Positions 7,443 to 48,055 of a stretch of 64,000 nt of DNA are shown here, piece by piece (the stretch's first letter is position 1; every line of letters begins with the position of its first letter). The stretch covers positions 26,619-90,618 of the forward strand of contig QQND01000001.1 in the NCBI GenBank assembly GCA_003402745.1. Reading direction: 5' to 3'. The stretch is from Verrucomicrobiota bacterium. Lineage in GTDB: Bacteria; Verrucomicrobiota; Verrucomicrobiia; Chthoniobacterales; Chthoniobacteraceae. The position numbers and the translations under genes are program-made. The notes under the pieces are model-generated. The model was given only the letters and a program-made list of their open reading frames with translations, had not been told where the DNA came from and did not search any database.

Positions 7443-8078
7443 CTACAAAATGTTCTCTTTGATTGCTTTAGAAACGGCGTTGCTACGGGAATTGACGTGC
7501 ATCTTTTCGTAAACCCGCCGCAAATAAGAATCAACAGTGTGCGCACTGAGCTGAAGGCGCTCGGCGATTTGTTTTTTAAGAAGCCCTTCCACGATGCATT
7601 GCAGCACTTCCATCTCTCTCCCGCTCAATCCGTAATCTGCTTGTTTTTTTGGTGCCAGGTTGGCGAACATTTCAAGAACACGGCGGGCAATTTTAGGAGT
7701 CATTGGGGCTCCGCCGGCAAGCGCGGCGTGAACAGCGTGCAGAAGTTCCTCTGCAGCCTGTATTTTCAAAAGGTATCCATTCGCTCCAGAGCAAATTGCC
7801 CGGAAAAGCTTGTCGTCATCCTCAAATACCGTGAGCACAACAATTGGAGTGCCGGGACTTCTTTTCTTAAATAGAGGAATTCCATCAAGTCCGCTCATCC
7901 CACGCAGGCCAATATCCAGAAGAATCAGCGCAGGGGGTGCTTCAGCGCCAAGCGCCAAAAATGCATCCTCACACGAAGCAAATAGTTTTGTTTCCAATGG
8001 AAATTCGCCCTGTTCCAAAAGCCGCGCGAGCGTTTTGCGAAACGCGGCATGATCATCAATGATCCAAACGGTGCTCAT
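7443..8078 (-). CDS. LuxR/NarL-type response regulator
   Basis: A 211-residue two-component regulator. The N-terminal receiver domain shows the acidic pair (IIDDHA) and the phospho-acceptor Asp in LILLDIGLRGMSG near residue 55, with the conserved Thr (VVLTVFEDDD) and Lys (GYLLKIQ). The C-terminal LuxR helix-turn-helix is GLSGREMEVLQCIVEGLLKKQIAERLQLSAHTVDSYLRRVYEKM (split here only for description). Its ATG overlaps the kinase stop (ATGA), so the pair is translationally coupled. Likely targets are its own operon and the adjacent PSD1-DUF1501 unit, because matching palindromes precede both; this is inferred. Confidence 0.93.
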   Translation of the reverse strand: MSTVWIIDDHAAFRKTLARLLEQGEFPLETKLFASCEDAFLALGAEAPPALILLDIGLRGMSGLDGIPLFKKRSPGTPIVVLTVFEDDDKLFRAICSGANGYLLKIQAAEELLHAVHAALAGGAPMTPKIARRVLEMFANLAPKKQADYGLSGREMEVLQCIVEGLLKKQIAERLQLSAHTVDSYLRRVYEKMHVNSRSNAVSKAIKENIL

Positions 8079-10024
8079 GGCTTTGGCATTTTGAAAACGA
8101 GGCGGGTTCCTTCACCGACGCGACTATCTATCAAAAGCGTCCCGTTTAAGTGCCCCGTCCGGTAGCGCATGTTTTCAATTCCATCTCCCGCGAGCGAGTT
8201 CTTGGGATCAAAGCCGCAGCCTCGGTCAACGACACACATTTCTACGCCGGAAGGGTTCCAGCTAAACTGAATTTCTACGGAAGAAGCGCCCGAATGTTTC
8301 ACAATATTATGCAAGGCCTCCCTGAAAACAAAAAGGATATCACGGTGAAATGAAATTGGCGCAACCGCCTCCGCAGGAATTATTTTTATCGTGAAATTCC
8401 ACTCCATACCTACAAGAAGCGCCCCCGCTACGCCCCTCATTTTTTCCACGAGAGTTTCTACCCCGGGCTGTCCTCTCTCCTTCAAAAGCCAAACCATGTC
8501 CCGCAACGATTCTGTGCTTTTCTCCGCTAAAGTGCGGATTTCAGAAAGTACGTCCTCTGCAGGACGGAGCGATTTTTCAGAGCAACTCATCTCGGCCATC
8601 AGCCTGATGCTACAGAGGTTGCTGCCCACGTCATCATGGAGATCGCGTGATATTTGTTGCCTGACCACCTCAATCTCGCGGGCCCGGGTGATGCGCCCGC
8701 GCAAAAAAAGAAGGGCGATCGAGCCGACGGCGAGCACTACGAATCCCTGAGCCATGCGGCCCGAACGCTCTTGCGAGTTCTTAATTTCCTGCTTCTGAAT
8801 ACGTATAAGTTCTTCGCGCTTTTCTAAAAGCAGTCGACGCCGTGAAAGCCCGTGAAGCCAAGCGGCGTCATCCTGAAGCATTCCGGCGCCGCCAATCCCG
8901 TCCACTAAAAAACTCGGTCTCCAGGCGGACGAGGTTGTAGAATCCGATGCGGTCACTACAGCGTTTCTTGCGATATTTTGGCGGCCTTCGAACGCCTCCA
9001 ACTCACCGAGAGCGAATACAAAATCACCGCTTCGTTCCCAGAGTTTCTGAGCTGTGACACGAAGGTACCGAATCGGACTACGAGGACAGGGAAAGGCAAC
9101 CTGAGTTTCCCCAGGGTTTGCAAAATCAACATTCGCACCATCAAATACCAGAGCCGGTTCGGAAAATGTGGGGGTAAGAGAAACCTCGATTTTAAACCTT
9201 AGGGGAAAGCCAAAGCCTGCTCTGTCTGGATAGTCTCGCGGATGTGCAGGGATGAGCCGGATTTCGTCCAGCGTGTGCACGCCTCCAAGATCGACTTGAA
9301 CCCAGCACTCCGAGTTTTGCGCTCTGAAGATTTGGCTGTGCCAACCGTTGCTTCCTGAGTCGAGGGGACTCGAAGGTATACCAAGCCCATGGGAGCCATC
9401 GACGACATGTTTGGGGGACCAAGTAGGCAGCGTCTCCACAGAATTGGGGGCCAGCACCGCAGCTTGCAGCGCCACGTCTCTCCCGCCGCTGAAGACCAAA
9501 ATTTCTCCCAAACAGAAGATGAAACGTGAGGTCATCCGGGGCTGGGGCACGAGGCTGAGCGCTGTAAATCGGACATACCGTGCCCGCACGCCACCCGCGT
9601 TTATGCAGTGGGGTAAAATACTGGAAGGCTCTTCGACGGTTGTTTCTAAAAGTAATTCCGATTCGCTCATAAGGACATCCCGCGAGGTCTCAACTCGGAA
9701 CTTGCCGGGAAAACCATAAGCCCCTGCGCCGTTGATACAGGCAGGAACAATCACCACCGAATCAATGGCATACTCGTTCCCCAGGTCCAATTGGATCCAC
9801 CGTGCCGCATCCAACGTCGGAGCAAAACCGCTATGATACCCAGCGTTGGACACGACCTGCAGGGGCGGAATCTCCGGACATTGCGCCAGTTCCCGGTCGA
9901 TTTCAAAGAGCTGCGTCTCCACCTTGGAGGTCCCAAAATTGAACCAAGCTTGAGCGTTCGCACTCCCATCTAAAAGGAGTGCGATAAAGGCTGCCGCACA
10001 CCTCAACAAGATCGCATTCACCAA
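8075..10024 (-). CDS. Sensor histidine kinase with two periplasmic discoidin-like domains
   Basis: A 649-residue NarX/DesK-type kinase. Order: signal peptide (1-24, ending ANAQA), discoidin-like domain 1 (about 25-190: WIQLDLGNEYAIDSVVIVPA, YVRFTALSL), discoidin-like domain 2 (about 205-370: CWVQVDLGGVHTLDEIRLIP, GFGFPLRFKIE, SGDFVFALGELEAF), a helical stalk, one transmembrane helix (about 421-440), HisKA_3 with the phospho-His in SRDLHDDVGSNL, and HATPase_c (N box REALHNIVKHSG, G boxes DRGCGFD and GDGIENM). Discoidin (F5/8 type C) domains usually bind carbohydrate, so a periplasmic glycan ligand is the simplest guess. Signalling passes to the overlapping LuxR-type regulator. Confidence 0.92.
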   Translation of the reverse strand: MVNAILLRCAAAFIALLLDGSANAQAWFNFGTSKVETQLFEIDRELAQCPEIPPLQVVSNAGYHSGFAPTLDAARWIQLDLGNEYAIDSVVIVPACINGAGAYGFPGKFRVETSRDVLMSESELLLETTVEEPSSILPHCINAGGVRARYVRFTALSLVPQPRMTSRFIFCLGEILVFSGGRDVALQAAVLAPNSVETLPTWSPKHVVDGSHGLGIPSSPLDSGSNGWHSQIFRAQNSECWVQVDLGGVHTLDEIRLIPAHPRDYPDRAGFGFPLRFKIEVSLTPTFSEPALVFDGANVDFANPGETQVAFPCPRSPIRYLRVTAQKLWERSGDFVFALGELEAFEGRQNIARNAVVTASDSTTSSAWRPSFLVDGIGGAGMLQDDAAWLHGLSRRRLLLEKREELIRIQKQEIKNSQERSGRMAQGFVVLAVGSIALLFLRGRITRAREIEVVRQQISRDLHDDVGSNLCSIRLMAEMSCSEKSLRPAEDVLSEIRTLAEKSTESLRDMVWLLKERGQPGVETLVEKMRGVAGALLVGMEWNFTIKIIPAEAVAPISFHRDILFVFREALHNIVKHSGASSVEIQFSWNPSGVEMCVVDRGCGFDPKNSLAGDGIENMRYRTGHLNGTLLIDSRVGEGTRLVFKMPKP

Positions 10025-15690: not shown

Positions 15691-16299
15691 ATGATCACCT
15701 TTTTGGAAGGCATTCTTGTAGAGGCATACCCCACCCACGTGGTTTTGAATGTGCATGGGGTCGGATACCACGTTTCTATTCCACTCTCCAGCTATGACCG
15801 TCTTCCCGCCGTGGGTGCGAAGTTTCATATGCTGACTCACCTCCAAATCCGCGAGGATGCGCACGTTCTTTTTGGCTTTGCCACGACCCCGGAACGCGAC
15901 TTGTTTCGAATGCTCATCCATCATGTTTCTGGCATCGGTCCGAAAACGGCACTGGATGTTTTGAGCGGCGTTTCCGTGATGAGTTTTAAGAGCGCCGTTG
16001 TCGCAGGCGACGCCAAGTCGCTCTCGCAGGTGAAAGGGATTGGGAAAAAAACGGCTGAGCGTATCATTGTCGAACTCAAGGACAAAGTCGGAGTCGCTGC
16101 GGCTTGGGAAGCCGCGTCGGCCACCCACGCGCCGGCGCCGCGCGAGATGGAAATGAACGATGCGATGCTCGCCCTCATCGCCCTCGGCTACAAACAAGTG
16201 GATGCCCACAAAGCCATCAAGGCAGTCACAGAGAAACGGCCTGCCGAGGAAATTCCCTCGGATGAATTACTCCGGGAAGCCCTCAAGCGCCTCGCTTAA
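15691..16299 (+). CDS. ruvA: Holliday junction branch migration protein RuvA
   Basis: DNA-binding subunit of the RuvAB branch migration complex in recombination repair. The protein begins MITFLEGILVEAYPTHVVLNVHGVGYHVSIP (OB-fold domain I), has two helix-hairpin-helix motifs in domain II (HVSGIGPKTALDVLSG and VKGIGKKTAERIIVELKDK), and a short C-terminal domain III (AMLALIALGYKQVDAHKAI) that contacts RuvB. The MIT start is used because RuvA proteins normally begin MIxxLxG; an in-frame ATG 12 bases upstream is an alternative. The stop overlaps the next start (TAATG). RuvB and RuvC are not in the window. Confidence 0.95.
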   Translation: MITFLEGILVEAYPTHVVLNVHGVGYHVSIPLSSYDRLPAVGAKFHMLTHLQIREDAHVLFGFATTPERDLFRMLIHHVSGIGPKTALDVLSGVSVMSFKSAVVAGDAKSLSQVKGIGKKTAERIIVELKDKVGVAAAWEAASATHAPAPREMEMNDAMLALIALGYKQVDAHKAIKAVTEKRPAEEIPSDELLREALKRLA

Positions 16300-17624
16300 T
16301 GACGGAACAAAACGCCCCCTTGGCACAGCTCCAGGCTGCGCTTCCAGAATCCGGCCTTTTTGCGGGAAAGACCTGGCGATTTTCCCCCCAGGCGTTTCCG
16401 CTGACTGATGCGCTTCACGCCGAATTACTTTCGCTGGGAGAACGCTTGTGGGCTTTCCAAAGGGCATGTAACGACCTCTACGCTCTATCCGCCTCGGGTC
16501 GCCAGCCCGCCTGGGTTGCGGAACTCTTGGACCGGGGCAAACCTCCAGAATTGGTCGAGTTCAGCCGCGCAAAGGCTTTTCGAAACCAGGTTCCGCAGGT
16601 GCTGCGCCCGGACGTGATTCTGACTGAAGACGGCTTCGTTTTAAGCGAACTCGATTCGGTTCCGGGAGGGATCGGCCTGACGGCATGGCTCAACGCAACC
16701 TACGCGGAGGCGGGTGCAGAGGTTCTTGGCGGGGCTTCCGGAATGCTGGAGGGCTTTGCGGGCATTGCACCTGGAGGGGATATTCTGATCTCCCGCGAAG
16801 CAGACACTTACCGTCCTGAAATGGAATGGGTTGCCTCCCGGACAGGACACCGTGTGTGTGCCGCTGAGGGTTACGGTGCGCGTACTGACAAGCGCAGGGA
16901 AGTGTACCGTTTCTTTGAACTCTTCGACCTCGAAAACATTCCCGAGGTTGCTTCGCTCCAGAGCGCAGCTCTGCAGGGCGAGCTCACTGTGACGCCCCCC
17001 TTCAAGCCGTATTTGGAAGAAAAACTTTGGTTCGCTCTATTCTGGATACGTCCGCTGCGCAGCTATTGGCGCAGAGCTCTCACGGACCGAAATTTTCTGG
17101 CGCTGCAAAAAGTGATTCCTAAATCTTGGGTTCTGGATCCGCAGCCCCTTCCCCCTCACGCGGAGCTGCCCGGGTTGGGAATCCACGATTTCAGCGAGTT
17201 GGGTGACTTTAGCCAGAAGGAACGGGAACTGGTCATCAAGGCCAGCGGGTTTTCAGAGCTTGCCTGGGGGGCACGCAGCGTCGTCATTGGTTCAGATGAA
17301 CCACAAATATCTTGGAAAACCTCTGTTTTCCAGGCTCTTAAAGCATTTCCGAAGCAGCCGCACATTTTACAGCGCTTCCACAAGGCACGACTCTTCCAAC
17401 ACACGGTGTACGACCCGGTGAGCGGCGACGTACACCCTTTTCCCTGCCGAGTCCGGCTTTGTCCGTACTACTTTTCCCCGCAGAACCAGCCGAAGCTCGC
17501 TGGGGCGCTGGCAACGCTCTGTCCCCCGGACAAAAAGATCCTCCATGGCATGAAGGATGCCGTACTGGTCCCTGCAAGCATCGCTTCCACTGGCTGGACG
17601 CGGGCCGGTGGCCCGCTAAGCTGA
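16299..17624 (+). CDS. ATP-grasp-like protein, glutathionylspermidine-synthase fold suspected
   Basis: A 441-residue protein that I do not recognise with certainty. The N-terminal half contains RPDVILTEDGFVLSELDSVPGGIG, reminiscent of the substrate region of glutathionylspermidine-synthase/circularly permuted ATP-grasp proteins. The C-terminal half has spaced ATP-grasp-like elements: an arginine/lysine-rich segment RPLRSYWRRALTDRNFLALQ, KVIPKSWVLDP, ELVIKASGFSELAWG, HILQRFHKA and FPCRVRLCPYYF. No signal peptide is seen, so it is probably cytoplasmic. Its ATG overlaps the ruvA stop, and it is followed at 5 bases by an SRPBCC gene and a ketosynthase, which hints at a ligase in a small biosynthetic pathway. 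Confidence 0.5.
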   Translation: MTEQNAPLAQLQAALPESGLFAGKTWRFSPQAFPLTDALHAELLSLGERLWAFQRACNDLYALSASGRQPAWVAELLDRGKPPELVEFSRAKAFRNQVPQVLRPDVILTEDGFVLSELDSVPGGIGLTAWLNATYAEAGAEVLGGASGMLEGFAGIAPGGDILISREADTYRPEMEWVASRTGHRVCAAEGYGARTDKRREVYRFFELFDLENIPEVASLQSAALQGELTVTPPFKPYLEEKLWFALFWIRPLRSYWRRALTDRNFLALQKVIPKSWVLDPQPLPPHAELPGLGIHDFSELGDFSQKERELVIKASGFSELAWGARSVVIGSDEPQISWKTSVFQALKAFPKQPHILQRFHKARLFQHTVYDPVSGDVHPFPCRVRLCPYYFSPQNQPKLAGALATLCPPDKKILHGMKDAVLVPASIASTGWTRAGGPLS

Positions 17625-17629
17625 GCTCA

Positions 17630-18082
17630 GTGCACTCCACCTCCAGCATCCTCATTCAAGCGCCTCGCGAGAGAATTTTCGAAACCGTCTGTCAATTACT
17701 ACGGTGGCCGGATTTTCTGCCCCATTACCGCTTCGTGCGTGCGCTTCAGCCCGTGTCAGGCGCACGCGAAGGATGGACGAGCCTCCACATGGCAGCGGCG
17801 GGCGGGTGGTTTCCCGTGGCTTGGAAAGCAAGCTTTCGAGCGGACACCGACCTGCTGGAGCTTCACTTTGAACACACGGCCGCTTTCACAAAAGGCATGC
17901 AGGTAGTCTGGACGCTAACACAAACTCCTGAAGGGACGCTGGTTGAAATACTCCATAAACTGAGTTTCAGAGTGCCCGGCCTGGGGGGTTTCATCGAACC
18001 GCTACTGCAGCACGGCTTCATTGAGCCTGTGGCAAAAAAAACACTGGCCACCTTCAAGTCGCTTCTCGAGAGCCGGCCATGA
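17630..18082 (+). CDS. SRPBCC (START/polyketide cyclase-like) protein
   Basis: A 150-residue protein with the helix-grip pattern of the SRPBCC superfamily: HSTSSILIQAPRERIFETVCQLLRWPDFLPHYRFVRAL at the N-terminus (strand, then the alpha helices at the cavity mouth), central strands, and the long C-terminal helix FIEPLLQHGFIEPVAKKTLATFKSLLES. Members bind hydrophobic ligands; some are polyketide aromatase/cyclases. The ORF-track start lies inside the previous gene, so the GTG at 17630, 5 bases after the upstream stop, is chosen. It overlaps the ketosynthase by ATGA. Coupling to the ketosynthase suggests that it handles the acyl or polyketide product, which is inference. Confidence 0.75.
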   Translation: MHSTSSILIQAPRERIFETVCQLLRWPDFLPHYRFVRALQPVSGAREGWTSLHMAAAGGWFPVAWKASFRADTDLLELHFEHTAAFTKGMQVVWTLTQTPEGTLVEILHKLSFRVPGLGGFIEPLLQHGFIEPVAKKTLATFKSLLESRP

Positions 18083-19338
18083 ACTACCAAACATCTGCAA
18101 AAGTCCGTCGGGCCGTCATCACAGGACTTGGCCCGATCACCGCAGTGGGTCTTGGTAAAACCGACCTTTGGCGCGCTCTGCTCGAGGGGCGCAGTGGAAT
18201 CCGCCCCGTGAGTTTTTTTGATCCGGCATCCTATCATGCCAAACATTCCGCCGAAATTAGAGACTGGAACCCCAAGAACTTTTTCCCGCCCCATCGGCTC
18301 AAAAGACTGGATCGATACGCGCAATTTGCGGTGGCGTCTGCACTTCTCGCCTTGGAAGACGCGGGGCTTTCTTGGAGCGCTCAAAAGCCTCAGGACCGAG
18401 TCGGGGTTTCTTTTGGCACGGCTTTGGGTGGGATTGCCAATGCGGAAAAAGAGCACACAGCATTTCTTGCGGGCGGCCCAAAGGCGGTCAGCCAAACCCT
18501 TGCACTGACGGTTTTTGGCGGCTCTGCACATTCCAACATAGCCATGGAATGCGGCTTCCGCGGACCGGGGACAACGAACTCAAACTCCTGTTCCAGCGGC
18601 GCCGTCGCCGTGGCTGACGCGCTGCGTTTCATTCGGGAGGATCGCGCCGATGTCATCATCGCAGGCGCCGCTGAAGCACCGTTATGTCCATTAACTTTTG
18701 GGGCGTTTGACTTCATTAAAACCATGAGTCGATGGCAGGGTGACCCTCCCGAATTTGCGTGCAGACCTTTCGATCTTTCGCGGCAAGGGTTTGTGATGGG
18801 GGAAGGAGCGGCAAGCCTCGTGATTGAAGAGTACGAGCATGCTCTCAGGCGCGGCGCCCACATCTATGCAGAAGTCTTGGGCTGGGGGTTGAGTAACGAA
18901 GCCTTCCACATGACCTCTCCCCTTCCCGGAGGCGCGGCAGTAATCCGATGCATGAAAGAAACGCTTGATGATGCAGGACTTGAAACACCCGATGTGGATT
19001 ATATAAACGCCCATGCGAGCGGCACGCAAATGAATGATTCCAACGAATCCTCCTGTATCAGCGCCGTGTTTGGAGCAGCACCGCCTCCAGTGAGCGGCAC
19101 GAAAGCCATTACAGGGCATCCCCTGGGAGCGACCGCCGCCATCGAAACGGTTCTTTGCGCGCTTGCGATCCAGCATCAGATGCTCCCCCCCACGCTCCAT
19201 TTTCAAACGCCAGATCCGGCCTGCTCTTTGGACATCGTACCGAACATAGCCCGACCTGCAAAGATCAGGAATGTGCTGAACAACGCCTTTGGCTTCGGAG
19301 GAATTAACGCCTGTATCGCTCTCGGCGCGCCCTGTTGA
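18079..19338 (+). CDS. Beta-ketoacyl-ACP synthase (FabF/KS-alpha type)
   Basis: A 419-residue thiolase-fold condensing enzyme. The catalytic triad is visible: Cys171 in NSNSCSSGAVAV, His312 in NAHASGTQMND and His347 in TKAITGHPLGA, at nearly the spacing of E. coli FabF (163, 303, 340). The motifs depart from the FabF consensus (TACSSG and NAHGTST), which suggests a specialised clade more than the housekeeping FabF. No ACP, malonyl-transferase or ketoreductase is adjacent, so partners must be shared from elsewhere. It is translationally coupled to the SRPBCC gene. It may build a secondary lipid or polyketide; the product is unknown. Confidence 0.85.
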   Translation: MNYQTSAKVRRAVITGLGPITAVGLGKTDLWRALLEGRSGIRPVSFFDPASYHAKHSAEIRDWNPKNFFPPHRLKRLDRYAQFAVASALLALEDAGLSWSAQKPQDRVGVSFGTALGGIANAEKEHTAFLAGGPKAVSQTLALTVFGGSAHSNIAMECGFRGPGTTNSNSCSSGAVAVADALRFIREDRADVIIAGAAEAPLCPLTFGAFDFIKTMSRWQGDPPEFACRPFDLSRQGFVMGEGAASLVIEEYEHALRRGAHIYAEVLGWGLSNEAFHMTSPLPGGAAVIRCMKETLDDAGLETPDVDYINAHASGTQMNDSNESSCISAVFGAAPPPVSGTKAITGHPLGATAAIETVLCALAIQHQMLPPTLHFQTPDPACSLDIVPNIARPAKIRNVLNNAFGFGGINACIALGAPC

Positions 19339-19429: not shown

Positions 19430-20251
19430 ATGCTGCACAAACCCGAGAGCGCACTAATTATTGTTGGACACGGCTCTACCGTGAATCCGGACTCCAGCGC
19501 GCCCACCTTTGACCACGCCGAAGCAATCCTGCGGCAGGGCTCTTTTGGGGAAGTGCACTGCGCGTTTTGGAAGGAGGAACCGAGCCTGCGGCAAGTCCTG
19601 CACATGGTCGACCGTGAGGACGTCTACATCGTTCCCAACTTCATCAGCGAAGGCTACTTCACCAGAACCGTAATTCCCCGCGAATTGGAGCTTACAGGAC
19701 CACTCACTCACCGCGATGGACGCCTTCTCAAATACTGCGAACCTGTGGGCAACCACGAGCGGATGTGCGAGCTGCTTTTAAAGCGGGCAGCCGAAGTCGC
19801 ACCGGGTGTCCCGACAAAGGACTGCAGTCTTCTCATCGTGGGCCATGGAACGAACCTCAACGATAATTCGGCATTCGCGGCCAAACGCGAGGTAGACCGA
19901 ATCCGTGACACGGGCCTCTACGGCGAAGTGTTCAACACGTACATGGAAGAGGCCCCCCTTGTGAACGAATGGGATTCTTACACCACCTGCCCGAATGTGG
20001 TTGTCGTACCGTTTTTCATCGCAGATGGCCTCCATTCTTACCAGGACATTCCGGTGCTACTGGGCATCGAGCAGGACACGGGATTGGCGGCAAGCCAGCG
20101 GGACATTTTTCGTCAAAATCCTTATCACCTGCGCGGAAGGACCTTATATTATGCAAGCGCGATCGGAACAGAGCCTCTATTTGGCGAGCTGATTCTGGAC
20201 CAAGCCGCACTCTTCGACCGCCAGCACTCCAACGCCACCCTATCCGCTTGA
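19430..20251 (+). CDS. CbiX/SirB-like chelatase, two-domain
   Basis: A 273-residue protein made of two CbiX-like halves. The first half opens LIIVGHGSTVNPDSSA and the second LLIVGHGTNLNDNSAF, each with the class II chelatase HG metal-binding motif; VVVPFFIADGLHSYQDIP matches the second metal histidine region. Class II chelatases insert Co, Fe or Ni into sirohydrochlorin-type tetrapyrroles. No other tetrapyrrole gene is nearby. The last four bases overlap the next gene (TTGA), whose Cys-rich product resembles the Fe-S part of Deinococcus DR2241, in which CbiX and Fe-S domains are fused. Metal and substrate are not predictable from sequence alone. Confidence 0.82.
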   Translation: MLHKPESALIIVGHGSTVNPDSSAPTFDHAEAILRQGSFGEVHCAFWKEEPSLRQVLHMVDREDVYIVPNFISEGYFTRTVIPRELELTGPLTHRDGRLLKYCEPVGNHERMCELLLKRAAEVAPGVPTKDCSLLIVGHGTNLNDNSAFAAKREVDRIRDTGLYGEVFNTYMEEAPLVNEWDSYTTCPNVVVVPFFIADGLHSYQDIPVLLGIEQDTGLAASQRDIFRQNPYHLRGRTLYYASAIGTEPLFGELILDQAALFDRQHSNATLSA

Positions 20252-20931
20252 AACGTAATCTCACCCAAGCCTTGGAATCCTGGATCGCCGCCGGATTCCG
20301 CTCGATCGGGCAAATCACGATCACCCCTCAGTCCAACGGAGGCTATGAATTGCGCCATGCCGAAGACTTAGGCCGGGAAGATCTCCATTTGCACACCTCC
20401 GCGGATGACGCCCGGGGGTTGTCCTTTTTCGATGATGCAAATGTGTATCGCCCGCTAAAGACCGCCCCAACCCTCAGGCACGGCTGGCGGCTGCTCGCAG
20501 GGACTGCGGGCGAGCTGCGTGCCGCTCTCGACCATTTTTATCCCTCCATGACAGCCTTGTGGCTCAGTTATTTAGAGGGTAAGTTGCCGCCCGTTCCTCT
20601 GCGCGAAACCCTGGGCCGACAGACTGGGATGTACGCCGCGACCAAACGCCTGTTGGATGACGAAGGCCAAGAGCTAGTGGGCAAGGCCTGTGCCGCCTCC
20701 GCCTGCACGAAGCGGATGTTGTGGCCTTTTTCTGAGAATCAGCCTCTCACTCAACTTCCGGCTGAGGACCTTTCCTGCGAACCGCGCGTCATGGCAGATG
20801 GTTCGCATCAAATCCCACTCCTCTGCCACGAAGCCTGCAATATTTTGGTGGCGGCTTGCCGCGAAGTCGTAAAAAAACGAGAACGCGCTCAATCCCCGCA
20901 GCCGAGCGCGGCTTCACCAGCCTCGCATTAG
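20248..20931 (+). CDS. DR2241-like 4Fe-4S domain protein, partner of the CbiX gene
   Basis: A 227-residue protein whose only plausible start is a TTG at 20248, overlapping the CbiX stop; the ORF-track methionine lies antiparallel in frame within CbiX and is rejected. The product begins KRNLTQALESWIAAGFRSIGQITITP, has LHLHTSADDARGLSFFDDANVYRPLKTAPTLRHGW in the middle, and ends with a cysteine array, GKACAASACTKRMLWPF, LSCEPR and IPLLCHEACNILVAACREV, consistent with an Fe-S cluster site. It resembles the Fe-S region of DR2241; this is from memory of the family and should be checked. A small low-complexity tail follows. Confidence 0.65.
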   Translation: MKRNLTQALESWIAAGFRSIGQITITPQSNGGYELRHAEDLGREDLHLHTSADDARGLSFFDDANVYRPLKTAPTLRHGWRLLAGTAGELRAALDHFYPSMTALWLSYLEGKLPPVPLRETLGRQTGMYAATKRLLDDEGQELVGKACAASACTKRMLWPFSENQPLTQLPAEDLSCEPRVMADGSHQIPLLCHEACNILVAACREVVKKRERAQSPQPSAASPASH

Positions 20932-34248: not shown

Positions 34249-35166
34249 ATGTCTGTCCTTGTTGTTGGTTCCATAGCCCTTGATACCGTAAAAACACCCG
34301 CAGCAGAACATACCGATTTGCTCGGCGGTTCCGCCAGTTACGCGGCCGTAAGCGCCAGCTTCTTCGCCCCTGTGAAACTCGTGGGTGTGGTTGGCGACGA
34401 TTTCCCCAGAGCACATCTCGATTTCCTCACGCACCGCAAGATCGATCTCTCCGGACTCCAGCAGGTCGAAGGGAAAACCTTCCGCTGGTCGGGTGAATAC
34501 ATGGTCGACATGAACACGCGCGAAACGCGTTCTGTTGAACTCAATGTCTTCGAACACTTTACGCCAACTCTCAACGCCTCGCACAACGCCACTCCCATCG
34601 TTCTGCTCGCCAATATCGCGCCCTCCCTGCAAAGCCATGTACTCGACCAGATGAACCGCCCCCAGTTCACCGTCGCAGACACCATGGACCTCTGGATCAA
34701 CATCGCCCGCGGCGATCTCGAGGCACTCCTCAAACGCGTGGACATGCTCATCCTCAACGACGGCGAAGCGCGTCTTTTCACCGGCGAAAACAATCTTATC
34801 AAAGCCGGTCATAAAATCCGCTCGATGGGCCCGCACTACGTCGCGATCAAGAAAGGCGAACACGGCTGCCTCCTCTTCGGGGAAAACGAATTTTTCTCCT
34901 GCCCCGCCTTCCCGCTGGAAACCATCCACGACCCGACCGGCGCAGGCGACACGTTCGCGGGCGGCCTGGCTGGCCATTTGGCGGCCAACGTCACTGGCGC
35001 CGTCACCTTCGCTGATCTCCGGCATGCCGTCGTTTATGGCAGCGTTCTAGCCAGCTTCAACGTCGAAGCCTTCAGTCTCGAACGACTGCGCTCCCTCCAG
35101 CCCGCTGAAATTACGGCCCGCTACGAGGCCTTCCGAGCGCTCAGTCAGTTTGAGGGAAACAAGTGA
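34249..35166 (+). CDS. PfkB family carbohydrate/nucleoside kinase
   Basis: A 305-residue ribokinase-fold kinase. N-terminal VLVVGSIALDTVKTP and LLGGSASYAAVSASFF; anion-hole and catalytic base motif DPTGAGDTFAGGLAGHL near the C-terminus; MLILNDGEARLFTGE in the middle. Adenosine kinase-like proteins and ADP-heptose-type kinases share this pattern, so the substrate is open. The ATG at 34249 is used; the ORF track adds 22 codons upstream with no family match. Its last four bases overlap the GTG of the ABC exporter, so both are translationally coupled, which might fit a nucleotide sugar or lipid A function, but this is a guess. Confidence 0.85.
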   Translation: MSVLVVGSIALDTVKTPAAEHTDLLGGSASYAAVSASFFAPVKLVGVVGDDFPRAHLDFLTHRKIDLSGLQQVEGKTFRWSGEYMVDMNTRETRSVELNVFEHFTPTLNASHNATPIVLLANIAPSLQSHVLDQMNRPQFTVADTMDLWINIARGDLEALLKRVDMLILNDGEARLFTGENNLIKAGHKIRSMGPHYVAIKKGEHGCLLFGENEFFSCPAFPLETIHDPTGAGDTFAGGLAGHLAANVTGAVTFADLRHAVVYGSVLASFNVEAFSLERLRSLQPAEITARYEAFRALSQFEGNK

Positions 35167-36884
35167 GCACCGTCCTGCGGGTCTTCCGTTATCTGCGCCG
35201 GTATCCCGGGTGGGCTGCCGGCACCCTCGGGTGCGCACTGCTTTCCACGGCGCTGGTGATCGTTTTCCCAAAAGTCACACAAGTCATCGTGGATGAAGTC
35301 AGCGCAGGCCGAGGGGAACGAATCTGGCCCTTGGTGGGCTGGGCGCTGCTTGCCTTCATCGCCCGGGACCTGCTGAATTCGGTGCGAATCATCTGCAACA
35401 ACACCTTTGAACAGAAGGTGATTTTTGATCTGCGCAGCGACCTTTATTCCCACATCCAGCGACTCCCACTGCGCTGGTTCGACAACCGCGCCACCGGCGA
35501 CCTGATGACCCGCGTGATGGAGGACGTTAACGCCGTGGAGCGCGTTCTCATCGACGGCATCGAGCAGGGCGCCGTCGCGGTTCTGCAGATCGTCATCGTC
35601 GCCGGCATGTTGTTCACCTACCACCCCTCGCTCGCCTGGTGGTCTTTTACCCCCATTCCCTTGCTCGCAGGCGGCGCGCTCGCGTACACATTCACTGCAA
35701 AACTCCGATACCGCGGCCAGCGCAAGGCGTCCTCGGCGATGAATTCCATGCTGCACGACAATCTCGCAGGCATCCGGCAGATCAAGACCTACGTCCGTGA
35801 AGAAGAGCAGCATGCGCGTTTCAACGAGGCAAGCAGCCAACTGCAGAAAGCCACGCTCGTGGTGATGCGCGTCTGGGCCGTCTACAATCCGTCCATGTCG
35901 CTGCTCGCCTCGCTGGGGCTTGTTGTGGTCGTGGCGTTTGGAGCCCAGGCCGTTCTCAGGCACGAGATGAGCGTGGGGGACCTTACCAGTTTCCTCCTCC
36001 TAACGGGCTTTTTGTACGACCCCATCAGCCGGCTGCATCAGCTTAACCAAATCCTTCAAGCCGGCCGTGCCGCCGGAGAACGCGTGTTTGAGATCTTGGA
36101 CGAACCGGTCGAGTGCGACGAAAACGCAAAGGCACCCCTCTCGCTTGCAGCAATCAAAGGGGAGGTGGAGTTTCGTAGCGTCGGTTTCCGATACCGCTCC
36201 GAGATCCCCGTTCTCAACGAGATCAACCTTCACGCCTCCCCCGGTGAAACAGTGGCGTTGGTGGGCGAAACAGGGGCGGGCAAGTCCACGCTGGTGCAAA
36301 TGCTGATTCGCTTTTACGAAAACGATGCGGGTGTTGTATTGCTCGACGGGATTCCGATTCATGAATTTTCCAGGGCTAGACTGCGCGACGCTGTGGGGTT
36401 GGTGACGCAGGAAAGTTTCCTCTTCAACGGCACGCTCCGCGAAAACCTGCTCTTTGGAAAACCCAACGCCTCCCCGGAGGAAATTCGCCTCGTGTTAGAG
36501 ACCGCAAACGTCGACGCCTTCATTGCGCGGTTGCCGGAAGGCCTCGACACGCTGGTGGGGGAACGCGGAGTGAAACTGAGCGTTGGAGAAAAACAGCGCA
36601 TCTCCATTGCAAGGATGCTTTTAAAGGACCCTCCAGTGCTGATTTTAGATGAGGCCACAGCCAGCGTCGATACCGAGACGGAACGCCAGATTCAACAGGC
36701 TCTGGAGAGGCTTATGCAGCGGCGCACGTGTTTTGTCATCGCCCACCGGCTTTCCACCGTCCAGAACGCCGACCAGATTCTGGTTCTAGACCGGGGCGCG
36801 ATCGTGGAGCGCGGGCGTCACGCTGAGCTCATCGCGCTCAACGGGATTTACACAAAGCTTTGCCGCAACAGCGAACTGCGCTGA
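35163..36884 (+). CDS. ABC transporter, fused permease/ATPase (MsbA-like exporter)
   Basis: A 573-residue half-transporter that acts as a homodimer in the inner membrane. Residues about 1-310 form the six-helix transmembrane domain (VLRVFRYLRRYPGWAAGTLGCALLSTALVIVFP; FDNRATGDLMTRVMEDVNAVERV; GIRQIKTYVREEEQ). The nucleotide-binding domain has Walker A GETGAGKSTLVQ, Q-loop VTQESFLFNGTL, the signature LSVGEKQRISIARM (LSGGQ replaced by LSVGE), Walker B VLILDEATASVD and the switch His in IAHRLSTVQ. MsbA-type lipid flippases have this form, but peptide or drug export is equally possible. It overlaps the kinase gene by four bases. Confidence 0.88.
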   Translation: MSTVLRVFRYLRRYPGWAAGTLGCALLSTALVIVFPKVTQVIVDEVSAGRGERIWPLVGWALLAFIARDLLNSVRIICNNTFEQKVIFDLRSDLYSHIQRLPLRWFDNRATGDLMTRVMEDVNAVERVLIDGIEQGAVAVLQIVIVAGMLFTYHPSLAWWSFTPIPLLAGGALAYTFTAKLRYRGQRKASSAMNSMLHDNLAGIRQIKTYVREEEQHARFNEASSQLQKATLVVMRVWAVYNPSMSLLASLGLVVVVAFGAQAVLRHEMSVGDLTSFLLLTGFLYDPISRLHQLNQILQAGRAAGERVFEILDEPVECDENAKAPLSLAAIKGEVEFRSVGFRYRSEIPVLNEINLHASPGETVALVGETGAGKSTLVQMLIRFYENDAGVVLLDGIPIHEFSRARLRDAVGLVTQESFLFNGTLRENLLFGKPNASPEEIRLVLETANVDAFIARLPEGLDTLVGERGVKLSVGEKQRISIARMLLKDPPVLILDEATASVDTETERQIQQALERLMQRRTCFVIAHRLSTVQNADQILVLDRGAIVERGRHAELIALNGIYTKLCRNSELR

Positions 36885-36896
36885 AGTTAAAATTAT

Positions 36897-38141
36897 ATGG
36901 AGAATTTCGACGTCCTTGTAGTCGGCGGAGGCGCCTCCGGTTATTTCGCAGCGATCACGGCTGCCCAGACCCGGCCCGACTGCCGCGTGTTGCTCGTGGA
37001 ACGCGGTCCACAACCGCTTTCCAAGGTGCGCATCTCCGGCGGCGGTCGCTGCAATGTCACACACTCCTGCTTTGAACCGCGCGCGCTTTCAACCCGTTAC
37101 CCACGCGGGGCACGCGCCCTGCTCTCGGCCTTCTCTAGGTTTCAACCATCCGACACCGTCCAGTGGTTTGAAAGCCGCGGGGTGAAACTGAAAACAGAAC
37201 CAGACGGACGCATGTTTCCAACGACGGACCGTTCCGAGTCGATCATCGAATGCCTCGAGCGCGAGGCTGTGGCATCCGGCGTCCAGGTGCGCGTGCGCTG
37301 CGGGGCGGAGGAGCTCCGGGCGTTGTCCGGGGGCGGATGGGAGGTGCTCCTTTCCGGAGTCCGGGGAGGGACGGTCCAGGCGAACAGGATTTTAATCGCC
37401 ACGGGCGGATGGCGCGACGGCACGCTGGCTTCGATGCTGAAAATGCTTGGCCACGATATTATTGCTCCAGTCCCTTCGCTGTTCACCTTTCACATCAACG
37501 ACGGCTGGGTCAGGGAGCTCTCCGGCCTGGCTGTAGCCAAGGCGGAAGTGGGTATCCAAGGCATTACGTTGCGGGAAAAAGGGCCGGTTTTGTTCACGCA
37601 CTGGGGGTTGAGCGGGCCCGCGATTTTAAGGCTCTCGGCCTGGGGAGCGCGCGAACTTCAGGAGAGGGATTACCACTTTCCCCTGCGCGTGCGCTGGTGC
37701 GGAGAACACAGCGAGCAGCAGGTGCTCGAGATTTTTCAGGAAATGCGCCTGCAACACCCGGGCAAGGCGGTGACCAATACCCCCCTTTTTGCGCTGCCCT
37801 CGCGCCTTTGGGAGAGACTAGTCGCCTCCGCCGGGGTCTTCGGAGAGGAACGCTGGAACCGTCTGACCAAGCAGGCGGCCCTCGGGCTGGCGGACAAACT
37901 CTTGCGCACAGAACTTCAGGTCACCGGCAAAAGCATGCACAAGGACGAGTTTGTCACCTGCGGCGGGGTGAGCCTCAGGCAGGTCGATTTTAAGACGATG
38001 GAAAGCCGTGTCTGCCCCGGCCTGCACTTCGCCGGAGAGGTGCTCGATCTCGACGGCATTACGGGCGGCTTCAATTTCCAAGCGGCGTGGACCACGGGCT
38101 GGCTCGCCGGCCAGGCGATGGCCCGAGGCACAGCGGCCTGA
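36897..38141 (+). CDS. HI0933-like flavoprotein (BaiN/YhiN family)
   Basis: A 414-residue NAD(P)/FAD-dependent oxidoreductase of unknown physiological role. The N-terminal dinucleotide motif is VLVVGGGASGYFAAITAAQ; KVRISGGGRCNVTHS is the family signature, followed by FKTEPDGRMFPTTDRSESIIECL, LFTHWGLSGPAILRLSA and the C-terminal TCGGVSLRQVDFKTMESRVCPGLHFAGEVLDLDGITGGFNFQAAW. Length is normal. It follows the exporter by 12 bases with an AT-rich spacer (AAAATTATATG). No substrate is suggested by the neighbours. Confidence 0.9.
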   Translation: MENFDVLVVGGGASGYFAAITAAQTRPDCRVLLVERGPQPLSKVRISGGGRCNVTHSCFEPRALSTRYPRGARALLSAFSRFQPSDTVQWFESRGVKLKTEPDGRMFPTTDRSESIIECLEREAVASGVQVRVRCGAEELRALSGGGWEVLLSGVRGGTVQANRILIATGGWRDGTLASMLKMLGHDIIAPVPSLFTFHINDGWVRELSGLAVAKAEVGIQGITLREKGPVLFTHWGLSGPAILRLSAWGARELQERDYHFPLRVRWCGEHSEQQVLEIFQEMRLQHPGKAVTNTPLFALPSRLWERLVASAGVFGEERWNRLTKQAALGLADKLLRTELQVTGKSMHKDEFVTCGGVSLRQVDFKTMESRVCPGLHFAGEVLDLDGITGGFNFQAAWTTGWLAGQAMARGTAA

Positions 38142-38186
38142 GCGAGGGGCTGCCATCGGCAACAGAAGCAATTTTTAGCAATATAC

Positions 38187-38399
38187 TTAAGTCAACTCGC
38201 TGTCATCCCTGCGCTCTAGGCGCATGAGCTGCTTTTTCACAGTCTCCACGTGTTTGGTGAGCTCATAGAGTGCCTTAAAAATCTCCGCCTGAGTCGGGGC
38301 GTCTTCCAGCGCCGGTGCCATCGGATGCATGCGCGTCACCGCCGCAGACAGTTGATTGCATTCGGCGCGGAGTTGCTGGATGGCTTCATTTCGGTTCAT
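38187..38399 (-). CDS. Small hypothetical protein, likely helical
   Basis: A 70-residue reading frame on the opposite strand of the convergent flavoprotein gene. It starts with ATG and ends in TAA; the composition (MNRNEAIQQLRAECNQLSAA...EIFKALYELTKHVETVKKQLMRLERRDD) reads as two amphipathic helices, possibly a coiled coil, without a hydrophobic signal. No ribosome-binding site is convincing. I do not recognise a family; it is retained because it fills a gap, uses sensible codons and is protein-like, but it could be spurious. Confidence 0.4.
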   Translation of the reverse strand: MNRNEAIQQLRAECNQLSAAVTRMHPMAPALEDAPTQAEIFKALYELTKHVETVKKQLMRLERRDDSELT

Positions 38400-38496
38400 G
38401 CAGCATTCTCAGCGGAGGGCAGCACTTGCTGCAAGCTCCTCCGCCGTTGCGCACCTGCGCAGGTGTGCTAGGATCATGCCTCCCTTTTTTAGGTCT

Positions 38497-38841
38497 ATGC
38501 CGAATTACGATTACACCTGCGAGAAATGTCACAAGACGTTCGAGTTCTTCCAGTCCATGAAGGACGAGCCTCTCAAGACTTGTCCGCAGTCTGCGTGCTG
38601 CCAAAAAACATGGGGCAAAGGTAAGGTGAAGCGCCAGATCGGAACTGGAGCCGGACTGATCTTCAAGGGCTCCGGCTTTTACATCACGGACTACCGGTCT
38701 GAGAACTACAAGTCCGGGGCCAAGAGCGATACAAAGAGCGCCGAAGCAGCCCCCGCTAAAACTGAGCCCCCCAAGGCCAGCCCGCCCCCGAAAAGCGAGG
38801 CGCCCAAGGCCGGCAAGTCCAAGCCGAAAGCTTCCGAATAA
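38497..38841 (+). CDS. FmdB-type zinc ribbon protein
   Basis: A 114-residue protein with the FmdB/CxxC regulatory-protein start MPNYDYTCEKCHKTFEFFQSMKDEPLKTCP and a second cysteine pair after it (CPQSACCQK), forming a zinc ribbon. After it comes GLIFKGSGFYITDYRSENYKS, which is typical of the family (GSGFYxTDYR), then a Lys/Pro/Ala-rich tail. The MPNYDY start is the family start, so the 47 upstream residues on the ORF track are rejected; another ATG lies seven codons upstream. Function is unknown in spite of the historical formamidase-regulator name. Confidence 0.9.
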   Translation: MPNYDYTCEKCHKTFEFFQSMKDEPLKTCPQSACCQKTWGKGKVKRQIGTGAGLIFKGSGFYITDYRSENYKSGAKSDTKSAEAAPAKTEPPKASPPPKSEAPKAGKSKPKASE

Positions 38842-38846
38842 GCTCC

Positions 38847-39521
38847 ATGGCTGCCCGCCCCCCGCGCAGTTCGAGTGCTCCAGCAAAGGGCGCTCCCAAG
38901 GCCCCCGCGCAGAGCGATTCTGTCCGGGGCGCGCTTTGGACGCGCGGCCTCCAGCGCTCCCTGATCGCGGCCCTGGTTCTGGCCCCCCTGCTGGCGCTGG
39001 GCATACAGCTCGCCCGGGTACCGGAAGTTCCACCTTCCGCCGTGTCGGTTGTAAAACCGCGCACCTTGGGCCCCCTCATCGCCGGCTCCATCGCCAACCC
39101 GCAGCCCACAACGCTGGAGTTCAGCCTGGATGAGATCAACACCCACCTCGCGCAGGTCCTCCCGCCCGTGGCCAAAAAGGACGGGAGCTGGGCATTTCAC
39201 ACAGCCTCACTTCGGCTAGAGCCCGAGAAGGCCACTTTGCAGACGGTCTACCGCTGGCACGGTTTCCAGCTGCATTTGCACGTGAGTTACGCCGTGTCTT
39301 TACAAGGGGGTAAACTGCAGCTGCGCCCCTTCAGCGCCAGCTGCGGACGGGTGGTGCTGGGCATGTACTGGATCCGGAAAGCGGAGGAAAACATCCTTCG
39401 CAAATTACTCCCCTCGTTGAAGAAAGAGCAAGTCCTGCTGAACCGCCTAGAAACGCTCAGGGTCGAACCTGGCCGTGTTCTCATGAAGGTCCGTGCCTCG
39501 ACCTCCATCGGCGGCGCCTGA
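38847..39521 (+). CDS. Single-pass membrane protein of unknown function
   Basis: A 224-residue protein with a Pro/Ala-rich cytoplasmic N-terminus, one transmembrane helix (about residues 38-58, RSLIAALVLAPLLALGIQLA) and an extracytoplasmic domain with FSLDEINTHLAQVLPP, LQTVYRWHGFQLHLHVSYAV and CGRVVLGMYWIRKAEENILRKLLPSL. No recognised domain. It starts 5 bases after the FmdB gene, suggesting cotranscription. It may be an anchored lipid- or protein-binding domain, but this is a guess. Confidence 0.65.
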   Translation: MAARPPRSSSAPAKGAPKAPAQSDSVRGALWTRGLQRSLIAALVLAPLLALGIQLARVPEVPPSAVSVVKPRTLGPLIAGSIANPQPTTLEFSLDEINTHLAQVLPPVAKKDGSWAFHTASLRLEPEKATLQTVYRWHGFQLHLHVSYAVSLQGGKLQLRPFSASCGRVVLGMYWIRKAEENILRKLLPSLKKEQVLLNRLETLRVEPGRVLMKVRASTSIGGA

Positions 39522-39575
39522 GATCGCTGCGGAAACGGGTGGTCAGACGATGTCCCTACCCGTTATGAACCCTGC

Positions 39576-40373
39576 ATGCTCAGGCTTCTTTTTCTTGGCG
39601 ACATCGTTGGCGAACCAGGCCGCAAGGCGGTGATAGATTCAATCCCGTGGTTTAAACAGGAGCGGGGCGTGGACTTTATCGTCGCAAACGGGGAGAACTC
39701 TGCGGGTGGCCGGGGCATTAGCCCTAAAATTAGCGTGGATCTGCTGCGTGCCGGTGTCGCAGTGATCACCACAGGAGACCACGTGTGGGATCAGAAAGAC
39801 CTCCTTCCCTACCTCCCCACCGAACCCCGCCTGCTGCGGCCCTTGAACTATCCCGCGGGCACCATTGGACACGGCTCCATCGTGTTGGATACCGCCAAAG
39901 GCAAGGTGGGCGTTATTAACATACAGGGCCGCACCTTCATGCAGCCCCCCTTGGAAAACCCGTTCCGGGTCATCCAGGCTGAGGTGGAGCGGATGCGTGA
40001 GGAGACGCACATCATCTTCGTCGATATCCATGCGGAGACCACCAGCGAAAAAATCGCGATGGGCCGCTTCCTCGACGGCAAAGTCTCCGGCGTCGTCGGC
40101 ACCCACACCCACACTCAAACCGCTGACGAACAGATTTTTCCGGGCGGCACCGCCTTTTTGTGCGACGCTGGAATGTGCGGCCCCATTGACAGCATTTTGG
40201 GACGCGACATCGAGGCCATTTTAAAGCGCTTCCTCACCAGCCTGCCCGTGAGTTTCCCCGTGGCGAAGGGGCCCGTCGTCCTGCACGGGGCGATGATTGA
40301 CATCGACGAAAATACAGGGCGCGCGATGCACATCGAAAGGGTCGCTCACCGCGTGGAACAAATGGGCGCCTAG
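39576..40373 (+). CDS. ymdB: YmdB family metallophosphoesterase (cyclic-nucleotide phosphodiesterase)
   Basis: A 265-residue member of the YmdB family (TIGR00282), which degrades 2',3'- and 3',5'-cyclic nucleotides and influences biofilm and RNA turnover in Bacillus. Metal-binding motifs are LFLGDIVGEPGR, VANGENSAGG (Asn/Glu), TGDHVWDQ, FVDIHAETTSEK and VGTHTHTQTADE. Length and start fit the family. The Bacillus homologue sits next to rny; here no such gene is adjacent. It is separated by 54 bases from the preceding membrane protein gene. Confidence 0.93.
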   Translation: MLRLLFLGDIVGEPGRKAVIDSIPWFKQERGVDFIVANGENSAGGRGISPKISVDLLRAGVAVITTGDHVWDQKDLLPYLPTEPRLLRPLNYPAGTIGHGSIVLDTAKGKVGVINIQGRTFMQPPLENPFRVIQAEVERMREETHIIFVDIHAETTSEKIAMGRFLDGKVSGVVGTHTHTQTADEQIFPGGTAFLCDAGMCGPIDSILGRDIEAILKRFLTSLPVSFPVAKGPVVLHGAMIDIDENTGRAMHIERVAHRVEQMGA

Positions 40374-40399
40374 GGACTAAGCCCACACGGCCGAACGGA

Positions 40400-40449
40400 G
40401 CGGCGCTTTAAGTAAAAGGCGGCGCCTTAAGTAAAAAGCGGCGCCTTTT
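40400..40449. repeat. 19-base tandem repeat, 2.6 copies, forming a terminator-like hairpin
   Basis: The unit GCGGCGC(C/T)TTAAGTAAAA(A/G) recurs with period 19 at 40400 and 40419, and the third, partial copy begins at 40438. AAAAGGCG (40414-40421) can pair with CGCCTTTT (40442-40449), giving a hairpin that ends in T residues, so the region may terminate ymdB and the convergent gene in both directions. The last base overlaps the stop codon of the minus-strand gene. Confidence 0.65.
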
Positions 40450-41285
40450 CAATTTTTCCACTGAAAACGGATAGGCGGCGGCGTGGGGCCGATGGGCTTC
40501 ATCTGCTCCAGAAGCTCCTCTTCCGGAGTTAGCTGGGGATTCGGCGGGTGCGCTTTTGGGATCGTCGGCCGGAACCCGCCCCGCTGGAGTTCAGGCCCGG
40601 CGGGATTTGCCGCGATCGCCGCGTTTGAGACCGGAGCGGCGGAACCCTCGGGAACGTCCTTTTCTGGCTTCGCCGCCTTGAGTTGCGCTCCCCCAAAGGA
40701 TGCGGGTGGCGCGGCCCCTCGCCTCGACTCGGTTGCGACAGGCGCGGTGTGCGCAGCAGAAGCCTTGGAAAATTCCGCCGCTTCGGTGGCTGGCGCACTC
40801 GCCACTGCGGCGCCTGACACTTTTTGTGGAGCCGGGTTCTGCGCGAGTGGCGTTCCGGACACGGCCTCTTCCTGGCTGGAAGGGGATACCGGCGCAGCTA
40901 GCGGAACCCCTTCGAGCTCGGAACTCGCCGCAGAGCCGCGAAGGAGTGGGAGGAGCGCCACAGGAATGAACAGGAGTCCGTTTAAGGCGATGAATGGCGC
41001 GATTTCACCCCAAGGAAAAGCCAGTCCTCCTCCCGACCCTCCGATTAGCGCAAAGCAGGCGGCGCTCCGAGTGAAGGAGGCCGCCAGCGTGGGTGCCGCT
41101 CCACCCTGGTGAAGGACAATCGCCCAAGCCCCAATCTGGATGGCCGCAAGCAGCAGGAGTTTCCACAGGAGCAGGAGTCTGTCTGCCTCCGCGCGCCCCG
41201 CGCGTGCAGGTGAAAAAAGGGCGCCCAAGGAAAGGTTGGCGGTGAGCAAAAGCAGCCCCAGGACGAAGAGTTTCGAGGAATTCAT
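40449..41285 (-). CDS. Multi-pass membrane protein with Ala/Pro-rich C-terminal region
   Basis: A 278-residue protein; the ORF-track start is 31 codons upstream, but MNSSKLFVLGLLLLTANLSLG starts the first hydrophobic helix. Further hydrophobic stretches: LLLLWKLLLLAAIQIGAWAIVL, FTRSAACFALIGGSGGGLAF and FIALNGLLFIPVALLPLLRG, so about four helices in residues 1-120. The remaining half is Ala/Pro/Ser-rich and probably disordered, ending in FRPTIPKAHPPNPQLTPEEELLEQMKPIGPTPPPIRFQWKN. I do not recognise a family. It is convergent with ymdB and diverges from the copper-protein gene. Confidence 0.6.
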   Translation of the reverse strand: MNSSKLFVLGLLLLTANLSLGALFSPARAGRAEADRLLLLWKLLLLAAIQIGAWAIVLHQGGAAPTLAASFTRSAACFALIGGSGGGLAFPWGEIAPFIALNGLLFIPVALLPLLRGSAASSELEGVPLAAPVSPSSQEEAVSGTPLAQNPAPQKVSGAAVASAPATEAAEFSKASAAHTAPVATESRRGAAPPASFGGAQLKAAKPEKDVPEGSAAPVSNAAIAANPAGPELQRGGFRPTIPKAHPPNPQLTPEEELLEQMKPIGPTPPPIRFQWKN

Positions 41286-41520
41286 GGGTGTGTTTCCCCC
41301 CAAACGTCTCCCATCTTCACTAGTAATCAAGGAGAGATGGATGAAAGAGCCGCTTTGGAAGCCAGGCGCCCCAGCCATTGCAGCGCTGAGAGTCCCTTAA
41401 AATACGAAAGGTCAACCCCTGACAGGGCCTCTTGCAGGTGAAAAAAATGAAAAGAACCTCACATTTGTCTGCCGCTGGGATTGTTCATTCGCATAACGTC
41501 GGTTTTCACAGTTTTTTCCC

Positions 41521-43164: not shown

Positions 43165-43183
43165 TCAGCCCCTACGTTTTATT

Positions 43184-44740: not shown

Positions 44741-44759
44741 GCGGTGCCAAGGAGTAGGA

Positions 44760-44797
44760 GAGTCGCTCCGGCGCAATGCCACGGAGCGGCTCTTTTC
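44760..44797 (+). terminator. Rho-independent terminator after the sugar-dehydrogenase-like gene
   Basis: An 11-pair stem, GAGTCGCTCCG with CGGAGCGGCTC (one G-U pair), has an 11-base loop and is followed at once by TTTT. It ends the copper-protein/dehydrogenase transcript 20 bases after the stop codon. Confidence 0.75.
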
Positions 44798-44822
44798 TGC
44801 GGCCCGCCCTTGCGATCCCTCC

Positions 44823-44838
44823 TAGAATAATCTATATT
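44823..44838 (+). promoter_or_regulatory. Candidate -10 region for the zinc peptidase gene
   Basis: TAGAAT (44823-44828) and TATATT (44833-44838) both resemble the -10 hexamer and sit 29-44 bases upstream of the ATG at 44867, between the preceding terminator and the gene. No clear -35 hexamer was found. Confidence 0.35.
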
Positions 44839-44866
44839 GCGGGCGTGTTTTGAACGCGTCCTTTTT

Positions 44867-45556: not shown

Positions 45557-45607
45557 AGTGTCGGGAGTTTCAGAGATTGCAGCGGGAGGAGAAAGCAGCT
45601 TGGAAAA

Positions 45608-45625
45608 CGGGCTTGCATCAGCCCG
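45608..45625. other. Hairpin between zinc peptidase and Rrf2 genes
   Basis: CGGGCT-TGCATC-AGCCCG is a perfect six-pair inverted repeat. There is no T-run after it, so it is either a weak terminator for the peptidase gene or part of the Rrf2 upstream region. TTGAAA follows at once and could be a -35 hexamer. Confidence 0.4.
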
Positions 45626-45668
45626 CTTGAAACCATACCAATTCTGTCTACTTACCGGATAACAGTAC

Positions 45669-46313: not shown

Positions 46314-46339
46314 AGCGACCAAGCTGAAGCCAAAAAAGC

Positions 46340-46382
46340 CCCTCCGCTGGACCGGTGGAGGGAATACAGCGAGAGTTTTTTT
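46340..46382 (+). promoter_or_regulatory. Leader hairpin and T-run before the cysT start
   Basis: CCCTCC and GGAGGG flank an 11-base loop (46340-46362); 13 bases later a seven-T run ends immediately before the cysT ATG. The distance is too great for a standard terminator, but the leader between the Rrf2 stop and the transport operon is short and structured. Confidence 0.3.
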
Positions 46383-46383
46383 C

Positions 46384-48050: not shown

Positions 48051-48055
48051 CTCTC

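Follow-up and report, generated by a model that had tools for sequence, protein, structure and literature searches.

Are three genes that follow one another without interruption also three steps of one pathway? The question arises in a window of 64,000 nucleotides, the whole stretch analysed here, from contig QQND01000001.1 of a Verrucomicrobiota bacterium whose genome is a 69% complete draft in 102 contigs. On its plus strand, ruvA (15691..16299; Holliday junction branch migration protein RuvA, TIGR00084, 199 bits against a cut-off of 85) is followed by A441 (16299..17624), an orphan ATP-grasp ligase with the predicted fold of glutathione and glutathionylspermidine synthetases. Next come a gene with a GTG start for an aromatase/cyclase-like SRPBCC (helix-grip) protein of 150 amino acids (17630..18082; identified by Pfam, PDB profile search, AlphaFold2 and Foldseek) and KS (18079..19338), a ketosynthase related to FabF but placed in a separate verrucomicrobial clade (identified by TIGR03150, a tree and its pairing with SRPBCC). 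The ruvA stop TAA (16297-16299) and the A441 ATG at 16299 share one base (TAATG), five bases separate the A441 end at 17624 from the GTG at 17630, and the SRPBCC end at 18082 overlaps the KS ATG start at 18079 by four bases. An earlier note, made from the sequence alone, described this chain and its overlap with ruvA, and every coordinate holds. The compact three-gene pathway that it proposed does not. On balance we favour, by a modest degree of belief, two independent units lying end to end: ruvA with A441, and SRPBCC-KS, which would work with a methyltransferase (MT) and an FAD oxidoreductase (FAD) towards a methylated aromatic lipid.

Of the 188 genomes sampled from the class Verrucomicrobiae, 167 have an A441 homologue; ruvA lies upstream in about 60 of 78 loci, and the genes downstream vary. 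Most class genomes that lack A441 belong to one genus (g9, family f8). The g9 genomes without it include several single-contig ones, and nearly all other class genera have the gene, a pattern of patchy loss. A441 is inherited behind ruvA across the class and, judged by position, is probably transcribed together with it. Outside the window, the order A441-SRPBCC-KS is confined to six near relatives (L036-L040 and L046); the nearest relatives of the window are metagenome-assembled genomes (MAGs) of the Chthoniobacteraceae/Spartobacteria. Three close relatives (L043-L045) have ruvA-A441 and no SRPBCC-KS at that place.

That A441, SRPBCC and KS serve one pathway, the ligase joining an amine or amino acid to an acyl chain made by KS and cyclised by SRPBCC, is therefore an explanation that we consider very improbable, and we rejected it on distribution and gene context. 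Tight coupling in the window and the six near relatives speaks for it, as do the ATP-grasp ligase fold of A441 and its conserved putative nucleotide and metal residues. A441 is nevertheless near-universal behind ruvA, whereas SRPBCC-KS occurs in about 13% of the genomes (SRPBCC in 25 of 188), mostly elsewhere, and the L043-L045 loci keep the ligase without the pair. Nor is there an association between A441 and SRPBCC across the 188 genomes, with A441 in 22 of the 25 SRPBCC-positive ones (p = 1.0). Since A441 is unassociated with SRPBCC, and SRPBCC-KS belong with MT and FAD, which lie on other contigs, the proposed amidated product is left without support, while the alternative of a cyclised product is supported. 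The gene chain is real and its fold families were well identified; it was the grouping of these genes into a pathway that was mistaken.

As side observations on these loci, A441 is directly followed by KS, with no SRPBCC between them, in another close relative (L041, 4255-6911) and also in L276. The public MAG records of L042, L043 and L045 are titled Akkermansia muciniphila, and these species names look wrong; their A441 proteins share 66-71% identity with that of the window, as in Spartobacteria.

The identity of A441 came from structure. Neither Pfam nor NCBIfam has a model that matches the protein, and PDB sequence searches with A441 and with its 68-row profile gave no relevant match; fold comparison alone succeeded. 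An AlphaFold2 model from an alignment of 68 sequences (mean predicted local distance difference test score, pLDDT, 94.5) was matched by Foldseek in the PDB to human glutathione synthetase (GSS; 8fbz, E 2.4e-12, probability 1.00), to 3n6x, a putative glutathionylspermidine synthase (E 5.1e-11), and to the ligase Cp1B and E. coli Gss. Template modelling (TM) scores of about 0.6 to human GSS, 3n6x and Cp1B identify a permuted ATP-grasp fold, which bears out the resemblance that had been read from the 441-residue sequence. The spacing R103-P-D105-x11-E117-x-D119 equals that of R316-x-D318-x11-E330-x-N332 in E. coli Gss, and K242 and K314 stand in motifs resembling those around Gss K498 and K533, a correspondence made by spacing and motif and not by superposition. 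R103, D105, E117, K242 and K314 are invariant in the 68 sequences. The Gss residues compared here have roles in metal and ATP binding. The model and these residues make it very probable that A441 is a functional enzyme, an ATP-grasp ligase of the glutathionylspermidine/glutathione synthetase type. It is like E. coli Gss, human GSS and 3n6x in predicted fold and apparently also in the R-x-D-x11-E-x-N/D spacing and the K242/K314 motifs; it differs in lacking a sequence match in the PDB, Pfam and NCBIfam, in having Asp for the Asn of E-x-N (68/68 sequences) and in having no amidase domain. An uncharacterised ligase invisible to Pfam and NCBIfam is thus present in about 90% of the sampled class genomes, usually behind ruvA.

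The partners of SRPBCC and KS are found in other surroundings. SRPBCC lies nearly always immediately upstream of KS, and among 289 genomes sampled across the phylum it turned up only within the class; a search of plasmids gave nothing. Relatives from the same taxonomic order have the pair behind successive sugar-isomerase-like, flippase and RibD_C genes, and more distant families have the arrangement MT-SRPBCC-KS-FAD, where MT is a UbiE-like methyltransferase. MT directly precedes SRPBCC-KS in ten loci and FAD directly follows KS in about eleven; in L184 the gene caller missed the FAD gene beside KS, which a further search recovered. In L278 a RibD_C-SRPBCC-KS arrangement exists with ruvA-A441 elsewhere in the genome, and this suggests a relocation of the pair to its place behind A441 in the lineage of the window. 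The genome of the window (G000) carries strong orthologues of both partners, unlinked to the window: MT at G000:C14:31489-32172 (E 2.4e-74) and FAD at G000:C12:28372-29412 (E 1.1e-109).

Among the 25 SRPBCC-positive genomes, KS is present in 23, MT in 23 and FAD in 22, and 22 genomes have all four genes. Fisher tests gave p values of 1e-20 to 1e-22 and odds ratios of about 190-300, values inflated by the neglect of relatedness; when SRPBCC labels were permuted within families, p was <= 1e-4 for each partner. One genome (G370) is an exception with MT and FAD and neither SRPBCC nor KS. RibD_C, a frequent neighbour, served as a negative control and is absent from the genome of the window. It is also present in many SRPBCC-negative genomes, and it was rejected as a core member together with the sugar-isomerase-like and flippase genes. 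Around the dispersed MT and FAD genes no further partner common to all appeared; MT repeatedly had YfiH-like and TolC-like genes as neighbours. SRPBCC and KS make up two members of a dispersed set of four genes, separate from the ruvA-A441 unit, and linkage and co-occurrence point to KS, SRPBCC, MT and FAD acting as one pathway. We found no description of the set in a library of open-access papers. It is widely distributed in Verrucomicrobiota, and genome mining based on clusters would miss it because its genes are often dispersed.

What kind of ketosynthase does the set contain? KS has the N- and C-terminal ketoacyl-synt domains of Pfam, and its best NCBIfam model is that of fabF (TIGR03150), where its score of 446.5 bits falls short of the 493.75 set as equivalog cut-off. 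The motifs TTNSNSCSSG (C171), NAHASGT (H312) and GTKAITGHPLG (K342, H347) are all present, and an alignment of 31 relatives shows no variation at C171, H312, K342 or H347, so the Cys-His-His triad and the non-standard NSNSCSSG and NAHASGT motifs pointed out before are confirmed. A second housekeeping FabF (beta-ketoacyl-acyl carrier protein synthase II, KAS II) with SRPBCC as an unrelated neighbour would account for the 42-43% identity to FabF and the TIGR03150 score of 446 bits, but we give it little credence. A separate FabF is encoded on contig C41 of the same genome, SRPBCC immediately precedes KS in most loci, and KS accompanies it in 23 of 25 genomes. In a quick tree with few outgroups, moreover, KS falls in its own clade of 35 (SH-like approximate likelihood ratio test, SH-aLRT, 95), apart from the FabF proteins of the class, and four KS-alpha sequences (actinobacterial and Azospirillum) are separate (99), so that KS does not group with KS-alpha either. 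The suspicion that KS was distinct from housekeeping FabF is upheld by this tree and by the FabF on C41; KS does not group with a sole housekeeping copy, just as A441 does not lack an ATP-grasp fold.

Other ketosynthases and contexts were noted alongside. L196 and L299 (genomes G218 and G066, family f11) each have a KS from the clade just described but no SRPBCC; the KS of L196 comes after a sugar-isomerase-like gene and a GtrA-like membrane gene, and a different use of KS is possible there. The genome of the window also carries an aryl-polyene-like cluster on contig C7 (about 35000-54000, loci L173 and L174) with three ketosynthase-domain genes, acyl carrier protein (ACP)-like proteins, acyltransferases, a hotdog-sized protein, an AMP-ligase-like and a LolA-like protein and an MMPL exporter. 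Its ketosynthase genes fall outside the clade of KS.

The SRPBCC protein matches Polyketide_cyc (2e-8) and Polyketide_cyc2 in Pfam. In agreement with its description as cyclase-like, the best PDB matches of its profile are aromatase/cyclases of type II polyketide synthases (PKSs), namely BexL (1e-18), WhiE ORFVI (2e-12) and TcmN (1e-6), with TTHA0849, a Coq10-like protein, behind them at 3e-5. The AlphaFold2 model (pLDDT 91.1) has a helix-grip fold, for which Foldseek ranked TTHA0849 first and placed WhiE, ZhuI and TcmN among the top matches. The protein thus resembles the type II aromatase/cyclases in fold and in family-level sequence, and it keeps Trp and Tyr at TcmN pocket positions (W26, Y33, W65 and W94). 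A pocket arginine (TcmN R69, ZhuI R66) has been reported as critical in aromatase/cyclases (review, PMC12664062). The invariant H32, H82 and H109 of the SRPBCC family are candidates, from the alignment, for the function of that arginine, which the family lacks.

The methyltransferase points to a known chemistry. Of the MT relatives in the class that score below its own orthologues, 14 of 32 adjoin a type III PKS gene, which makes MT a homologue of the partners in hidABC-type operons; the match of FAD to a type III PKS operon partner is weaker. Operons of the form type III PKS-MT-FAD are present in the same class. The corresponding operon of Planctomycetota makes alkylresorcinols, to which one methyl group is added when MT and FAD are co-expressed, and this three-gene operon resembles the cyanobacterial hidABC (PMC10896814, a study with Corynebacterium glutamicum as host); the alkylresorcinols from operons of this kind are C-methylated. 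Type III PKS genes are rare in SRPBCC-positive genomes (2 of 25 against 65 of 163, p = 0.0014, a value not corrected for relatedness), and the 69% complete genome of the window has no match to PF00195 (type III PKS).

The most economical reading of these results is that KS and SRPBCC take the chain-making and ring-closing position of a type III PKS cassette, and that the four enzymes probably make a methylated aromatic lipid by a route not described before. In such a route, KS would act as a homodimer that extends an acyl starter by condensation with malonyl units, leaving the chain not fully reduced, and would probably draw on the ACP and malonyl supply of fatty-acid synthesis. SRPBCC would bind and fold the poly-beta-keto chain for ring closure, so that the two proteins would stand in for the type III PKS of hidABC-type operons. 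The flavoenzyme would then hydroxylate the ring and MT methylate it, in an order that we can only propose, to give what would be a phenolic or quinone-type lipid carrying a methyl group. A more specific proposal, which we advance tentatively and regard as possible rather than probable, is that in many Verrucomicrobiae families a FabF-derived KS alone, with no chain-length factor (CLF), and an arginine-less aromatase/cyclase homologue replaced the type III PKS in an alkylresorcinol-type pathway. If true, this would be another biochemical route to the same class of aromatic lipids, from genes often scattered over the chromosome, and it makes a precise, testable prediction: that a KS without CLF, helped by a cyclase-like protein, fills the role of a type III synthase.

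Several observations weigh against such an aromatic pathway, beginning with the inflation of the Fisher tests. No CLF lies next to KS in the examined loci and no dedicated ACP gene was recognised there, although the gene caller could miss very short open reading frames (ORFs) such as that of an ACP; both adjoin KS in the Streptomyces and Azospirillum controls. The sharing of an ACP supposed in the earlier note is accordingly plausible. The conserved arginine is missing from all 29 of 29 SRPBCC sequences, which have F, Y, Q or E at that column of a HMMER alignment to TcmN. MT and FAD share no more than 22-34% identity with the partners of type III PKSs, and FAD belongs to a broad family (FAD_binding_3 match). 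Members of the KS clade occur without the other three genes in G356, G362, G382 and G078, and together with the SRPBCC-free L041 they imply that KS can have a use without SRPBCC. Some of these points feed an alternative to which we assign a lower but real probability, that the set modifies a fatty acid or lipid without aromatisation: KS would extend a special acyl chain, SRPBCC would be a lipid or quinone carrier (Coq10/START-like), MT would methylate, and the flavoenzyme would reduce or oxidise. The missing arginine and the breadth of the FAD_binding_3 match fit it, as do the highest scores of KS with FabF models and the first rank of the Coq10-like TTHA0849 in Foldseek. In the SRPBCC profile search, however, TTHA0849 falls many orders of magnitude behind the type II PKS aromatase/cyclases, and MT relatives are often partners of type III PKSs.

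Set beside known systems, the four genes plausibly work like two of them and are identical to none. They share with the type II aromatic PKSs (whiE, tcm, bex) a KS with Cys-His-His and an aromatase/cyclase-like SRPBCC; the set is not a type II PKS, because no CLF and no recognised ACP lie beside KS, KS is outside the KS-alpha clade and the conserved Arg of the cyclase is missing. With hidABC-type operons (cyanobacterial hierridin; alkylresorcinols of Planctomycetota) they share a homologous MT and, more weakly, FAD beside a chain-making enzyme. Here a FabF-family KS and SRPBCC replace the type III PKS and the genes are often dispersed, and the set is not a type III cassette, because no type III PKS was found in the draft. 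From FabF (KAS II), with which KS shares the family, the catalytic triad and the best NCBIfam model, KS differs in its sub-cut-off score, its separate clade, its TTNSNSC in place of the TAC/SAC context of FabF and the separate genomic FabF.

A scan for promoters and terminators around the chain gave no signal above shuffled background and was uninformative. Downstream of KS, at 19430-20931, a CbiX-like chelatase gene overlaps the next gene, whose product has DR2241-stabilising and 4Fe-4S domains. The pair also lies downstream of KS in the trio-bearing relatives; it looks like one protein in split form, because the NCBIfam model PRK02395.1-4 matches both genes. Elsewhere in the window, a tRNA-Leu on the minus strand (9924-10006) overlaps the start of a long ORF (8075-10024), whose TTG start, given this overlap, was probably called too far upstream.

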